From positions 1,302,001 through 1,366,000 of the forward strand of contig BPKI01000001.1 of NCBI GenBank assembly GCA_026005055.1: DNA of 64,000 nt, read 5' to 3'. The number at the start of each line of letters is the position of its first letter. Position 1 is the stretch's first letter. The DNA comes from Lysobacterales bacterium. Lineage in GTDB: Bacteria > Pseudomonadota > Gammaproteobacteria > Xanthomonadales > BPKI01. This document shows positions 7,411 to 13,519 of the stretch, piece by piece. The translations under genes and the position numbers were made by a program. The notes under the pieces are model-generated. The model was given only the letters and a program-made list of their open reading frames with translations. It was not told where the DNA came from and did no database searches.

Positions 7411-8059
7411 GGCGAAGCGAGCGTGGGATGCCGATCATGATAACGATCACCGCGCATGGATCCGCTCGCCCTCGACCGGCCTCCGCGGTCGGGGCGAGGC
7501 GAGCTCCGTCGCCTGCCGAGCGCACGGGGTTGCGAGATCGCCGTTTTCGCCGATCCTCGGGCGAGCTGCCGATCGCCACAGCGAGCGCCTTCCTGCAGCG
7601 TAGGCTGACCTCCGGCAACCCTTCCGCCGCATTCCGTCTTCGGGGCTTCGGAGCGTGATCGGGATCGCTCCGTGGCGATGGAGTCGAAGCGCGCCGGCTC
7701 GAGAAAAAGGGCTTCGCTCTCTGAGCTCCAGCTTCGAGGCTCGAAGGCCATGCTCACCCCGGCACCGGTCGGGGACGCGCACCAAGATTCGCTTCGCGGC
7801 TTTTCGCGGGTGCGTGGCATGGGCCCGCGAGTGGCGAGGGCGAAAAGCCGATCCGGCAAGGCTGGTGCTGGCGGGATGCACCTGGGCTCGGGCGGGGCCG
7901 GGAGGGCTGTGCTGGATGCGAGGCTGGAGGGGGCGGGTCGTGTGCTTGAGCGGTTGTGGAGCGCGCGGATTTGTGCGCGAAGCCTTGACGGTGGCGGAGG
8001 GTGCGTCCTAGAGTGCCGGAAGGCCCCGCAGAGGCTCGAGAGCGAAGGGGAGCGCGGCG
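7411..8059. other. Intergenic region with no supported gene
   Basis: This 649-base gap separates the minus-strand ATPase gene from the first beta-helix gene. Open frames exist on both strands, but they are arginine- and serine-rich and look like by-products of high GC. One plus-strand frame reaches 8011 and shares its last 40 or so residues with a frame upstream of the second beta-helix gene, only because the DNA itself is duplicated. The last 190 bases hold the duplicated promoter and leader. The first 450 bases show a small inverted repeat (ggagcg...cgctcc near 7660) and nothing else I can name. Confidence 0.6.
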
Positions 8060-8207
8060 ATGGTGGTGAACGAGGCGGGGCCCGTTTCGCGGCGTTGGGT
8101 TGGAGGGTGCAAGGCGCTGGCGGGGGTGCTGGGGTTGGCCTTGGCGGTGCTGGCGAGCCCGGCGGGGGCGGTGACCTACACGGTGACCACGGCGAGCGAT
8201 ACGGTCG
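7867..8207 (+). repeat. Long direct repeat, copy A (promoter, leader and signal peptide)
   Basis: About 340 bases that recur at 10525-10865 with a constant 2658-base offset and no gaps. From 7899 to 8089 I see one mismatch only; the outer parts are slightly more diverged. The repeat covers upstream sequence, a promoter, the ribosome site, the start codon and the first 49 codons of the beta-helix gene. Confidence 0.95.
7985..8014 (+). promoter_or_regulatory. Sigma-70-type promoter for the first beta-helix gene
   Basis: TTGACG at 7985-7990 and TAGAGT at 8009-8014 are separated by 18 bases. An imperfect dyad (gcgcgc...gtgcgc) lies just upstream of the -35 box, near 7961-7979, and could be an operator. 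The leader ends in an aaggggag ribosome site about 7 bases before the ATG at 8060. Confidence 0.65.
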
Positions 8208-10186
8208 CGGCGAATGGCGCCTGCTCCCTGCGCGAGGCGATCTTGGCGGCGAACAATACGCCGGCCAACGGCGACTGCGGCGGAGGGAGTAACGGCAACG
8301 ACACCATCGTTTTTAGCTTCACCGGGCCCACGACGATCACGCTCGGCTCGTCGCTGCCCCCGATCGTGAGCGGGCAGGGGACGCTGACGATCGACGGTGG
8401 CGGGAACGTCACCATCAGCGGGAACAACAGCGTGCGGGTGATGGTGGTCAACAGCGGCGCCGACCTCACGCTGCGGAACCTCACCATCGAGCGCGGGAAT
8501 GCGAGTCCTGGGGGCGGGGCGTTGAACGACGGCACGCTCAGGATCGAGAACAGCACCTTCCGGCAGAACACGGCGAGCTTGTTCGGCGGCGGGGTGCGGA
8601 ACAACGGCACCCTCACGATCACGAACAGCATCTTCTCGGAGAACACCGCCGGCGCCGTCGGCGGCGGGGCGGAGAACCACGGCACGCTCACCATCACCGG
8701 CAGCACCTTCGCGGGCAACAGCGCCAGCGACTTCGGCGGCGGGGTCGCGAACGGCGGCACGCTCACGATCACCGGCAGCACCTTCTCCGTCAACAGCGCC
8801 GACGGGGACGGCGGCGGGGTCGCGAACGGCGGCACGCTCACGATCACCGGCAGCACCTTCTCGGGCAACAGCGCCGGCTTCGACGGCGGCGGGGTACGGA
8901 ACCGAAGCGGCACGCTCACGATCGCGAACAGCACCTTCTCGGGGAACGGCGCCGGCAGGGACGGCGGTGGGGTGTGGAGCGGCCGCCTTAACCCCTTCTC
9001 GTCTCCTACTGTCGCGGTCTACAACAGCACCTTTTCGGAGAACCAGGCGGGTGGGAGTGGCGGGGGGCTCCGGATCGTGGAGGGCGATGCCACGCTCAAG
9101 AACACGATCATGGCCAACAGCACGGGGGGCGGGGATTGCGTGGGGACGCTCACCGGCTCCAACCTCAACAACCTGATCGAAGACACGGGGGCCAATGCCT
9201 GTGGCCTCACGGATGGGGTCGACGGCAACATCATCGGCCAGGACCCGCAGCTCGACCCGCTCTTCGGCTCTCCGGCCTATTTCCCGCTGCGGCTGGGAAG
9301 CCCGGCGCGGGATGCGGGCGATCCGACGACCTGCCAGGACCCGCCGGTGAACAACCGATCGCAGAACGGGATCCCCCGCCCGCAGGACGGGGACGGCAAC
9401 GGGGTGCCGGTGTGCGACATCGGGTCTTTCGAGGCGCTGGGTCTTCTGGCCGACATGAGGGCTCTCGGCGGCATGGTGCCTGCCGTCCTGGCGCCCGGGG
9501 GGAGCTACAGCCTGTCGTTCAGCTGCGAGAACCTCGGACTGGACCCAGCGAGCCAGGCCACCTGCGGGGTATCGGTGTCGGCGGGGAGCGTGAGCGCTGT
9601 GAACTGCATGCCGTCGGTGCCGACGAGCAGCCCTCTGATTCCGAGGTGGTTCATCAGCTGCACGTTCACGTACACCGCGCCGGGCATGCCTGGGGGCTCG
9701 GATACGCCGCAGACAGGTGCTGTCTTCACTTTCACGGCCGGCTCGGTCACCAGCGATCCGAACACGAACAACAACACGCTCACGAGCGCCACGGTGCCGC
9801 TGGTGGATGCCTTGGACGATGCGGTGAGTTTGCCGGGGGGCATCATCGGTGCGACCTTCGATGTGGGGGCGAACGATCAGTTGGGCGCGTCCTCGCCGCC
9901 TGCGGGGGCGAGTTACAGCCTGCTTGCGGAGACGACCTGTAGCGGGGCGAGCATCGGTGCGACGAGCGGGGTGGCGACCTTCAATGTGCCGGCGTTGGCG
10001 ACCTGCGTGGTGGTCTATCAGGTGTGCGTGAGCGAGGCGTGCGATACGGCGCAGTTGGTGGTGACGGGGCTGTTGCCGCCGCCGCGTTCGATTCCGATGC
10101 TGGGTCCCTTCGGTTTGTTGGTGTTGCTGGCGGGCTTGCTGGGTCTGGGCCGGTGGGGGATGCGGCGGGGACTGGCGTCGATCTGA
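8060..10186 (+). CDS. CSLREA / parallel beta-helix surface protein with IPTL-like tail
   Basis: A 708-residue exported protein. A signal peptide (about 1-37, ending SPAGA) is followed by the CSLREAI motif near residue 56, as in the CSLREA N-terminal domain. About eight beta-helix rungs of 24-25 residues follow (about 145-360), each with a GGG turn, a GTLTI strand and an N-S-TF-S-N ladder. A choice-of-anchor Q-like segment ends in CDIGSFE. Next is one cysteine-containing beta-sandwich-like module (about 465-670). The tail RSIPML (676-681), a hydrophobic stretch and basic residues resemble IPTL-CTERM exosortase-type sorting signals, but the motif is not canonical. The role may be adhesion or surface display; this is inference. 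The gene has its own promoter and a tandem paralogue at 10718. Confidence 0.85.
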   Translation: MVVNEAGPVSRRWVGGCKALAGVLGLALAVLASPAGAVTYTVTTASDTVAANGACSLREAILAANNTPANGDCGGGSNGNDTIVFSFTGPTTITLGSSLPPIVSGQGTLTIDGGGNVTISGNNSVRVMVVNSGADLTLRNLTIERGNASPGGGALNDGTLRIENSTFRQNTASLFGGGVRNNGTLTITNSIFSENTAGAVGGGAENHGTLTITGSTFAGNSASDFGGGVANGGTLTITGSTFSVNSADGDGGGVANGGTLTITGSTFSGNSAGFDGGGVRNRSGTLTIANSTFSGNGAGRDGGGVWSGRLNPFSSPTVAVYNSTFSENQAGGSGGGLRIVEGDATLKNTIMANSTGGGDCVGTLTGSNLNNLIEDTGANACGLTDGVDGNIIGQDPQLDPLFGSPAYFPLRLGSPARDAGDPTTCQDPPVNNRSQNGIPRPQDGDGNGVPVCDIGSFEALGLLADMRALGGMVPAVLAPGGSYSLSFSCENLGLDPASQATCGVSVSAGSVSAVNCMPSVPTSSPLIPRWFISCTFTYTAPGMPGGSDTPQTGAVFTFTAGSVTSDPNTNNNTLTSATVPLVDALDDAVSLPGGIIGATFDVGANDQLGASSPPAGASYSLLAETTCSGASIGATSGVATFNVPALATCVVVYQVCVSEACDTAQLVVTGLLPPPRSIPMLGPFGLLVLLAGLLGLGRWGMRRGLASI
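8329..8481 (+). repeat. Identical 153-base block shared by the two beta-helix genes, copy A
   Basis: By eye this block is identical to 10984-11136 (offset 2655). It encodes the segment from TTITLGSSLPP to LTLRNL just before the variable rungs. Sequence on both sides is clearly diverged between the two genes, so the block is an island of identity. Confidence 0.9.
8734..8862 (+). repeat. 75-base tandem repeat unit inside the beta-helix
   Basis: A 54-base stretch at 8734-8787 recurs unchanged at 8809-8862, giving a 75-base period equal to one 25-residue helix rung. Neighbouring rungs are more diverged copies. Such in-frame repeats can gain or lose rungs by slippage or recombination. Confidence 0.85.
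9801..10105 (+). repeat. 305-base near-identical block at gene 3' ends, copy A
   Basis: Matches 13125-13429 (offset 3324) with two mismatches that I could find: an A/G in the GAGACGACC region and an A/G in the TATCAGGTG region. It encodes the last beta-sandwich module and the PPPRSIPML motif. Identity stops right after IPML, where the hydrophobic tails diverge. Confidence 0.93.
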
Positions 10187-10717
10187 GGAGCGGGCGGGGT
10201 TTTCTGCGCGAGCGTTGCGGCGGCCGAGGGGTGGTGGGGCTTTTGGGGGCCTCGGTCGGCTGTTCGTCGCGTGACCGGGCCGTTGCCGCCTGCGCGGTGG
10301 TGATCGAGAGGGGGTCGGCCGCGCGCGTTGCGAGAGCGGCGGCTCCGGAAGAGAAAGGGCCGCGCGCGGCGGCTTGGATCATCGCGTTCGAGCCCATTCC
10401 AAGGGGCGATTGAAGGTTGCATCGGATCGATTCATCGCCGGGTTGCTGCTCGGGGTTGGGGTCCTTGGGTGCGGAGGTCCTTGGGCGATGGCGGCGCGAT
10501 GGGGGAGGTTTTCGGTGGCGGGGTGCCGGCGGGATGCGCCCGGGCTTGGGCGGGGCCTGGAGGGCTGTGCTGGATGCGAGGCTGGAGGGGGCGGGTCGTG
10601 TGCTTGAGCGGTTGTGGAGCGCGCGGATTTGTGCGCGAAGCCTTGACGGTGGCGGAGGGTGCGTCCTAGAGTGCCGGAAGGCCCCGCAGAGGCTCGAGAG
10701 CGAAGGGGAGAGCGGCG
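10187..10717. other. Intergenic region between the beta-helix paralogues
   Basis: These 531 bases have no supported gene. The first 330 bases are unique to this gap and contain a possible hairpin (ccgagg...cctcgg near 10220-10255) that lacks a T-tract. The last 190 bases are the second copy of the duplicated promoter and leader. Open frames here are glycine/arginine-rich artefacts of the G-rich plus strand. Confidence 0.6.
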
Positions 10718-10865
10718 ATGGTGGTGAACGAGGCGGGGCCCGTTTCGGGGCGTCGGGGTGGAGGGTGCAAGGCGCTGGCGGGGGTGCTGGGCTTGGCCTT
10801 GGCGGTGCTGGCGAGCCCGGCGGGGGCGGTGACGTATACGGTGACCACGGCGAGCGATACGGTGT
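10525..10865 (+). repeat. Long direct repeat, copy B (promoter, leader and signal peptide)
   Basis: The second copy of 7867-8207. It carries the same promoter, ribosome site and signal-peptide codons at the same spacing. Coding identity ends just after the GDTV-like codons near 10865, where the two genes diverge before the CSLREAI motif. Confidence 0.95.
10643..10672 (+). promoter_or_regulatory. Sigma-70-type promoter for the second beta-helix gene
   Basis: TTGACG at 10643-10648 and TAGAGT at 10667-10672, 18 bases apart, are an exact copy of the promoter at 7985. The ribosome site cgaaggggag ends 7 bases before the ATG at 10718. Confidence 0.65.
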
Positions 10866-13519
10866 CGTCAGACTCTCAGTGTTCGCTGCGCGAGGCGATC
10901 CAGGAGGCCAACAACGGTAGCGACACCGACTGTGGCGGCTCACCGAATTCGGGCAACGACCTCATCGTCTTTCACCCCAGCGTCACGACGATCACGCTCG
11001 GCTCGTCGCTGCCCCCGATCGTGAGCGGGCAGGGGACGCTGACGATCGACGGTGGCGGGAACGTCACCATCAGCGGGAACAACAGCGTGCGGGTGATGGT
11101 GGTCAACAGCGGCGCCGACCTCACGCTGCGGAACCTGACCGTTGCCAATGGCAATGCCATTGGCAGTCCCGGTGCTGATTTCGGCGGCGGCGTAAGAAAC
11201 GCTGGCAGATTGACCATCACGGGGAGCACGTTTTCCAGCAATGCCGCGTTCGACGGCGGCGGAGGGGTGGCGAATGCTGGCACCCTGAGCATCAGCAACA
11301 GCACCTTCTCGGACAACCGTGCCACCTCCAGCAGCGGGATCGGGGGTGGGCTGCTCAATGTCGGCAGCGCGACGGTCATCGGCAGCACGTTCCAGCAAAA
11401 CAGCGCCGGAGACGAGGGCGGCGGGGTGTTCAACTCGAGTGGTGCCACGCTGACGATTACGGGGAGCACCTTTTCCGACAACCTTACCGTGAGCGGCGGC
11501 GCGGTGTACAACGTCGGAAGCCTGCAGATCACCGACAGCACCTTCTCCGACAATCAGGTCACCGGAAACGGCGGAGGGGCGTACAACACTGGCATGCTGA
11601 CCATTACTGCAAGCACCTTTTCCGGAAACAATGTCACTTCCCTTAGCAGCGGGGATGGGGGCGGTGGGGTGTTCAATGCCAGCGGCGGCACGCTGATCAT
11701 CACCAACAGCACCTTCTCCGGCAACAGGGCCAACCTTGGCGGCGGCGGGGGGATCCGCGTGGCTGCCGGCAACGCCACGCTCAAGAACACCATCATCGCC
11801 AACAGCCCGAGCGGCGGGGATTGCGTGGGGACGCTCACCGGTTCCAACCTCCACAATCTGATCGAGGACAGCGCCAACGCCTGCGGTCTGACCGACGGCC
11901 TCGACGGCAACATCATCGGCCAGGACCCGCAGCTCGACCCGCTCACCGGCTCGCCGGCCTATTTCCCGCTGCAGCTGGGGAGCCCGGCGCGGGATGCGGG
12001 TCATCCGGGCACTTGCCAGAACCCGCCGGTGAGCAACCGATCGCAGAACGGGATCCCCCGCCCGCAGGACGGGGACGGCAACGGGGTGCCGGTGTGCGAC
12101 ATCGGGTCTTTCGAGGCGCTGGGTCTTGAGGCGGATATGATGGCCTTGGGCGGCACGGTGCCTGCCGTCCTGGAACCCGGGGGGAGCTACAGCCTGTTGT
12201 CGTTCAGGTGCCGGAACCTCGGAGCCGACGCAGCGAGCCAGGCCACCTGCGGGGTATCGGTGTCGGCGGGGAGCGTGAGTGGTGTCTCGTGTACGCCGTC
12301 GGTGCCGACGACGAGCCCTCTGCCGGCGGGGGAGATCATCGACTGCACGTTCACGTACACCGCGCCGGGCACGCCTGGGGGCTCGGATACGGCGCCGACG
12401 GGCGCCGTGTTCACCTTCACGGCTGGCTCGGTGACCAGCGATCCCATTCCCGGCAACAACACCGCCACCAGCGGGGCGACGCCGATTCCGCTGGTGGACG
12501 CCCTGGACGACGCGGCGAGCTTCCCGGCCAGCACCGTGGGGGCGACCTACAACGTGGGCGCCAACGACCAGTACGGGACGGGATCGCTGCCGGGGACGGC
12601 GAGCTTCACCCTTCTGCCGGCCACGACCTGCACCGGGGCGAGCATCAACGCCACGACAGGCGTGGCCACCTTCAACGTGCCGGCCTCCGGCACCTGCGTG
12701 GTGGCGTACCAGGTGTGCGTGAGCTCAGCCTGCGACACGGCACAACTCACCGTCACCGCCCAGCACAGCGACATGAGCGTGGCCTTCGGGAGCCTGCCCT
12801 CGGTGGTGAGCCCGGGGGGATCCTACCCGGGTCTGATCTTCACCTGTACCAACGATGGGCCCGGTGCTGCGGTCAACGCCACCTGCGGGGTATCGGTGTC
12901 GGCGGGGAGCGTGAGCGCTGTGAACTGCATGCCGTCGGTGCCGACGACGAGCCCTCTGCCCTTGTTCGGCGTGATCAGCTGCACCTACACCTTCACTGCT
13001 CCCGGCAGCCAGGGAGGGGGTGACACCCTGGAGACCGGTGTCAGCTTCACGTTCACCACCGATGCCACCAACGACTCCAATGCGACGAACAACACGGTGA
13101 GCAGCGGGGCGACGCCGATTCCTTTGGTGGATGCCTTGGACGATGCGGTGAGTTTGCCGGGGGGCATCATCGGTGCGACCTTCGATGTGGGGGCGAACGA
13201 TCAGTTGGGCGCGTCCTCGCCGCCTGCGGGGGCGAGTTACAGCCTGCTTGCGGGGACGACCTGTAGCGGGGCGAGCATCGGTGCGACGAGCGGGGTGGCG
13301 ACCTTCAATGTGCCGGCGTTGGCGACCTGCGTGGTGGTCTATCGGGTGTGCGTGAGCGAGGCGTGCGATACGGCGCAGTTGGTGGTGACGGGGCTGTTGC
13401 CGCCGCCGCGTTCGATTCCGATGCTGGGTGGCTGGGCGCTGATCGCACTCGGCTTCTGGGCCGTCCTGCTCGGATGGTGGGCGCTGAAGAGGCATCCATC
13501 GCCCGCCTCGGTGCGGTAA
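10718..13519 (+). CDS. Second CSLREA / beta-helix surface protein with doubled C-terminal module
   Basis: A 933-residue paralogue of the protein encoded at 8060. It has the same signal peptide, CSLREAI motif, beta-helix rungs with GGG turns, and choice-of-anchor Q-like segment ending CDIGSFEALGL. It then has two cysteine-containing beta-sandwich modules (encoded at about 12131-12760 and 12768-13400) where the first gene has one; each ends in an ACDTAQL motif. The C-terminus is RSIPML (898-903), a tryptophan-rich hydrophobic stretch and basic residues. The helix rungs differ from those of the first protein, while the N-terminus and last module are nearly identical in DNA. This pattern suggests duplication followed by gene conversion or selective divergence of the helix. 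No sorting enzyme gene is seen nearby. Confidence 0.85.
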   Translation: MVVNEAGPVSGRRGGGCKALAGVLGLALAVLASPAGAVTYTVTTASDTVSSDSQCSLREAIQEANNGSDTDCGGSPNSGNDLIVFHPSVTTITLGSSLPPIVSGQGTLTIDGGGNVTISGNNSVRVMVVNSGADLTLRNLTVANGNAIGSPGADFGGGVRNAGRLTITGSTFSSNAAFDGGGGVANAGTLSISNSTFSDNRATSSSGIGGGLLNVGSATVIGSTFQQNSAGDEGGGVFNSSGATLTITGSTFSDNLTVSGGAVYNVGSLQITDSTFSDNQVTGNGGGAYNTGMLTITASTFSGNNVTSLSSGDGGGGVFNASGGTLIITNSTFSGNRANLGGGGGIRVAAGNATLKNTIIANSPSGGDCVGTLTGSNLHNLIEDSANACGLTDGLDGNIIGQDPQLDPLTGSPAYFPLQLGSPARDAGHPGTCQNPPVSNRSQNGIPRPQDGDGNGVPVCDIGSFEALGLEADMMALGGTVPAVLEPGGSYSLLSFRCRNLGADAASQATCGVSVSAGSVSGVSCTPSVPTTSPLPAGEIIDCTFTYTAPGTPGGSDTAPTGAVFTFTAGSVTSDPIPGNNTATSGATPIPLVDALDDAASFPASTVGATYNVGANDQYGTGSLPGTASFTLLPATTCTGASINATTGVATFNVPASGTCVVAYQVCVSSACDTAQLTVTAQHSDMSVAFGSLPSVVSPGGSYPGLIFTCTNDGPGAAVNATCGVSVSAGSVSAVNCMPSVPTTSPLPLFGVISCTYTFTAPGSQGGGDTLETGVSFTFTTDATNDSNATNNTVSSGATPIPLVDALDDAVSLPGGIIGATFDVGANDQLGASSPPAGASYSLLAGTTCSGASIGATSGVATFNVPALATCVVVYRVCVSEACDTAQLVVTGLLPPPRSIPMLGGWALIALGFWAVLLGWWALKRHPSPASVR
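10984..11136 (+). repeat. Identical 153-base block, copy B
   Basis: The partner of 8329-8481. It begins at the first CACGACGATCAC and ends at the codon after GCGGAAC, after which the two genes encode different residues. Confidence 0.9.
13125..13429 (+). repeat. 305-base near-identical block at gene 3' ends, copy B
   Basis: The partner of 9801-10105, encoding the last module and the IPML motif of the second protein. Confidence 0.93.

Follow-up and report, generated by a model that had tools for sequence, protein, structure and literature searches.

Two genes, here named A and B, lie head to tail on the forward strand of the window, which is the whole 64,000-nucleotide stretch of a Lysobacterales bacterium analysed here. 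They are flanked by a HerA-like ATPase gene on the left and an SLT/LysM transglycosylase gene on the right, and the features of the locus are collected in Table 1. Both open reading frames were found where a sequence-only reading had placed two head-to-tail paralogous beta-helix genes, and A and B are a real tandem pair of paralogues. Their products share a CSLREA region (TIGR04214; 32.4 bits in A and 34.9 bits in B) and a choice-of-anchor Q domain (NF041518; 27.4 and 27.2 bits), all above the curated cut-off of 25 that applies to either model.

Table 1. Features of the A-B locus, with positions counted from the first letter of the window.
Feature	Position	Strand	Basis or remark
Upstream repeat, copy 1 (promoter-like site, 5' leader, ribosome site)	7864-8059	+	96.9% identity to 10522-10717, gapless
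Sigma-70-like site TTGACG-18-TAGAGT upstream of A	7985-8014	+	Consensus scan
Gene A (708 aa)	8060-10186	+	Signal peptide, CSLREA, beta-helix, choice-of-anchor Q, one Ig-like module, IPML-type C-terminal tail
Divergent patch (CSLREA segment)	8171-8328	+	A 67-68% against B, C and D; B, C and D mutually 98-99%
CSLREA motif region of A (residues 40-65)	8177-8254	+	TIGR04214, 32.4 bits against cut-off 25
Homogenised patch	8329-8480	+	A = B at 152/152; C = D; 97.4% between arrays
Beta-helix rungs of A, about seven of 25 aa, with FxxN and GGG motifs	8510-9079	+	AlphaFold2 model; 75-nt repeats
C-terminal sorting-like tail of A: RSIPMLG, hydrophobic helix, basic end	10085-10183	+	Sequence; modelled helix 683-702; tail type recurs in other proteins of the genome
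3' flank of A, present also after D	10187-10373	+	80% over 187 bases at G000:C1:2434498-2434698
Relic of the ctaB 3' end (most likely), encoding ...AWIIAFEPIPRGD and a stop	10360-10413	+	Junction in CGCGGCGGC-type microhomology; tail comparable to ctaB of related genomes
Upstream repeat, copy 2	10522-10717	+	196 bp, 96.9% identity to copy 1
Sigma-70-like site upstream of B	10643-10672	+	Identical to that of A; consensus scan
Gene B (933 aa)	10718-13519	+	Plan as gene A; rungs differ, two Ig-like modules, terminal helix differs
Rung region of B	11159-11741	+	DNA matches to C or D short and partial; about 61-64% identity to other copies
Patch of B matching the end of A at about 98% identity	13116-13429	+	Abrupt stop after the IPMLG codons
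C-terminal tail of B, hydrophobic then basic	13430-13516	+	Plan common with tails of A, C and D; sequence unrelated

The fold of A was modelled with AlphaFold2, and as the mean pLDDT was 51.9, use of the model was limited to its rung region and C-terminal helix. The rung region (residues 161-310, pLDDT about 80-96) contained three short strands in each 25-residue rung, and the closest solved structure to this beta-helix was Rhombotarget A (RbtA, 9cdu; E 2.2e-3). RbtA of Acinetobacter (TIGR04212, PDB 9CDU) is a cell-surface protein (PMC12643943), and the products of A and B resemble it in their N-terminal CSLREA region, in their beta-helix, for which it is the best structural match, and in a partial NCBIfam match over residues 24-200. 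However, the scores against that model (17.4 bits for A and 28.9 bits for B) are far under its equivalog cut-off of 295, the tails of A and B are IPTL-like whereas that of RbtA is GlyGly-CTERM as judged from the name of the NCBIfam model, and A and B carry extra Ig-like modules, one in A and two in B. The Pmp proteins of Chlamydia form another multi-gene surface family with FxxN and GG(A/G)x motifs in beta-helix rungs of about 25 residues (PMC11166332). Membership in the Pmp family was rejected: the repeat match was 19.3 bits in A and 13.6 bits in B against the Pfam cut-off of 20.6, the core spacing was absent from A and occurred twice in B, the Pfam search returned no autotransporter hit, and the model of A has a single C-terminal helix at residues 683-702. 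The products of A and B are probably cell-surface beta-helix proteins.

The near-identical upstream DNA with promoter-like boxes that had been described before each gene was confirmed as one gapless block with the same sigma-70-like site in both copies. Two such sites were found against 0.4 (sd 0.7) in shuffled sequences, a consensus match being no proof of activity. The leader occurs in four copies in the genome, which is a single contig of 2.44 Mb. A second array, composed of genes C and D, is located on the minus strand at about 2434700-2438900, approximately 1.1 Mb from A-B and immediately 3' of ctaB, the gene for heme O synthase. An ISL3 transposase gene lies on the other side of ctaB, one gene away from this array, whereas no mobile-element genes stand beside the A-B array in the window, as had been noted earlier. 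Gene C (G000:C1:2437379-2438872; L017:15380-16873; 497 aa) is an in-frame deletion form without the Ig-like module, FEALGL being joined straight to PRSIPMLG. Gene D (G000:C1:2434702-2436845, in L017) is frameshifted and has several single-base insertions relative to C. Its local sequence appears to be a blend of A-like and C-like versions, so that D is either a copy in decay or the product of a consensus error within a repeat. One lineage-specific surface-protein gene is represented four times, by A and B in one tandem array and by C and D in the other, and these copies are sequence mosaics.

The mosaic is seen when A and B are compared segment by segment. Their identity was 96.9% upstream, 96.4% in the signal peptide, 67.1% in the CSLREA segment and 100% in the next 152 bases; further 3' it was 60.7% in the rungs, 91.1% in the post-helix region, and 82.6% and 97.9% in the first and second halves of the Ig-like module region. 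In 1000 column shuffles, neither such strong clustering nor an identical run as long as the longest one seen (153 sites) ever arose. The helix regions do differ between the genes, as had been read from the sequence, but the companion claim that both ends are almost identical did not survive, since the CSLREA segment is among the divergent stretches and the C-termini are unrelated past the SIPMLG codons (B from 13430). The homogenised patch at 8329-8480 is identical within the arrays and different between them, which is the mark of local gene conversion.

Silent divergence varied along the genes in the same manner. The A-B dS in successive coding segments was 0.10, 0.75, 0.02, 1.09 and 0.25, a range of about 45-fold, with values of 0.02-0.10 in those 5' coding blocks that are not part of the CSLREA segment. 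In the divergent stretches, dS of 0.75 and 1.09 went with dN/dS of 0.59 and 0.40, and dN/dS was at most 0.59 in all the coding segments. Because silent divergence is high and dN/dS is below 1, these stretches seem to have diverged long ago rather than under diversifying selection. For the helix, dN/dS values of 0.40-0.53 led to the rejection of positive selection.

Because the near-identity reaches non-coding DNA and silent sites, the pattern is the one expected of recent copying or gene conversion. Judged from these comparisons of sequence, the conserved ends and variable middle are explained by duplication with gene conversion and not by a special cassette design. Thus, the earlier proposal of a duplicated surface-protein cassette stands, but its idea that the exposed helix varies by design while the delivery parts are kept the same does not, given the near-identity of silent and non-coding positions and the divergent CSLREA patch. 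A related possibility is that selection keeps the promoter, signal peptide, CSLREA region and sorting tail alike and leaves the helix free to vary. The signal peptide and the upstream block are indeed among the most alike parts; however, the likeness is just as great at silent sites and in non-coding DNA, and the CSLREA segment and sorting tail are among the divergent parts, which such selection does not predict, and we therefore regard it as unlikely.

The spacer between the genes carries information on where the arrays originated. The A-B and C-D spacers are 97% identical and both hold the last bases of ctaB. The 3' end of A with the spacer and the 5' end of B is 96.7% identical to the end of C with its spacer and the start of D, and the spacer with the start of B is 96.8% identical to the end of ctaB with the start of C. 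In both spacers, bases from the ctaB side are joined to bases from the post-D side at microhomology of the CGCGGCGGC type. Among the CtaB proteins of related genomes in the order, a comparable tail (DHYL, a variable stretch of about ten residues, and an IxFxP-like end) was found in many, so the relic end in the spacer most likely belongs to ctaB. Since this relic lies in the A-B spacer, ctaB is the most likely place of origin of the tandem duplication, and the array in the window would be a derived copy, an order of events read from four copies in one genome. Under this scheme, a tandem duplication at ctaB, at short CGGCGGC-type microhomology, probably trapped the last ctaB bases in the spacer; the ctaB-side array was then probably copied to the window locus with the relic carried along; and the right end of the window array probably merged with a gene that bore its own terminal helix. 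Gene conversion would afterwards have held the promoter, the leader and parts of the coding sequence alike, and the older divergence would be what is left in the rungs and the CSLREA segment.

Four copies at two loci could also be viewed as a recombination-driven repertoire for antigenic or phase variation, in which helix segments are swapped between the loci and cells show different rungs. The mosaic patches among the copies, the near-identical flanks that are able to recombine and the broken, donor-like copy D agree with such a repertoire, which we nevertheless find improbable, as A and B have least in common in the helix and most of their shared patches at the ends, dN/dS is below 1, promoter-like sites before both A and B leave no single expression site evident, and no invertible element was seen in the array. 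It is equally doubtful that the two dispersed arrays are recombining actively at present, with inter-array conversion at the leader and module ends reshuffling rungs, CSLREA segments and sorting tails; if they were, the arrays would give cells different surface stalks. No switching mechanism was found, and the one genome of the family that was examined gave no positive evidence of population variation. A false duplication of one or both arrays in the assembly is very unlikely: C equals D over up to 670 aligned sites and the frameshifts of D resemble blended reads, but A and B differ by 19% overall and in their tails, they sit on one contig between ordinary single genes, and an assembler does not create 40% rung divergence, so that the doubt falls mainly on D.

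The genome has one match to exosortase XrtH (G000:C1:26493-27044; 180.5 bits against a cut-off of 86), in which Cys86, Arg127 and His146 are present in the GCDG, NLVR and FH motifs; these we take to be the exosortase catalytic residues. The tails of A and B were unmatched by the IPTL-CTERM model (TIGR04174) at E 0.1 and in the genome scan. A 512-aa protein of the same genome passes the cut-off of this model and has a C-terminal module in common with A, and R-x-[IV]-P-x-L followed by a hydrophobic helix and a basic end is the tail type of several other proteins of the genome. On the strength of this common module and motif, A and B were assigned IPTL-like tails. The XrtH gene, the R-x-[IV]-P-x-L tails and the IPTL-CTERM-passing protein with the module of A together make export by Sec and then processing by XrtH the best inference on function. 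The proteins would be exported via Sec and cleaved by XrtH at the predicted IPML site, and each would then stay at the cell surface, or be set free from it, as a beta-helix stalk. A role of the stalk in adhesion, as cell-cell or matrix contact, is a guess from fold and location.

As in known exosortase/PEP-CTERM sorting of the IPTL-CTERM and XrtH type (TIGR04174, TIGR04177), XrtH is present in the genome and the tail consists of a motif, a hydrophobic helix and a basic end, but most of the proteins here have IPML, VPML or VPAL instead of IPTL, and A and B are under the curated cut-off. Expansion of paralogues is known among PEP-CTERM proteins (PMC1569441). A literature search for exosortase with IPTL-CTERM, or for exosortase H, found nothing, and one for CSLREA gave passing mentions only. 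A 1410-aa protein (G000:C1:452331-456563; L066:4332-8564) with an N-terminal DUF7948 domain, three copies of the C-terminal module of A, and an end of RPVPMLG and a hydrophobic helix is, by its domain plan, another probable XrtH substrate. Tails with R-x-[IV]-P-x-L or near it, below the IPTL-CTERM cut-off, were also noticed at G000:C1:424053, 473630, 2085590 and 399557 (L067, L071, L069 and L068, respectively). In this lineage, many XrtH substrates may go unrecognised by the curated IPTL-CTERM model.

Homologues were found in 37 of the 69 genera sampled of the order, and further genomes of the order also have CSLREA/beta-helix genes in neighbouring copies; the matches from the named genome collection were all distant and came from MAGs of Chloroflexi and Nitrospirae. 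Another member of the order (L074; G127:C145:6500-12399) has three CSLREA-like beta-helix genes in tandem, and the 67-bp repeats between these genes reach 97% identity. With at least one other genome of the order having such genes and repeats, the A-B arrangement is not unique. A-B is an instructive but ordinary surface-gene duplication. As a whole, the explanation by duplication at ctaB, copying, gene conversion, Sec export and XrtH processing is the best we can offer and is likely to be right. The locus indicates that conserved ends with a variable middle can come from duplication and gene conversion alone, and that the origin of an array can be traced through a piece of ctaB taken up in it. 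It also brings out a set of probable XrtH substrates whose relaxed IPTL motifs (R-x-[IV]-P-x-L) escape the current IPTL-CTERM model.
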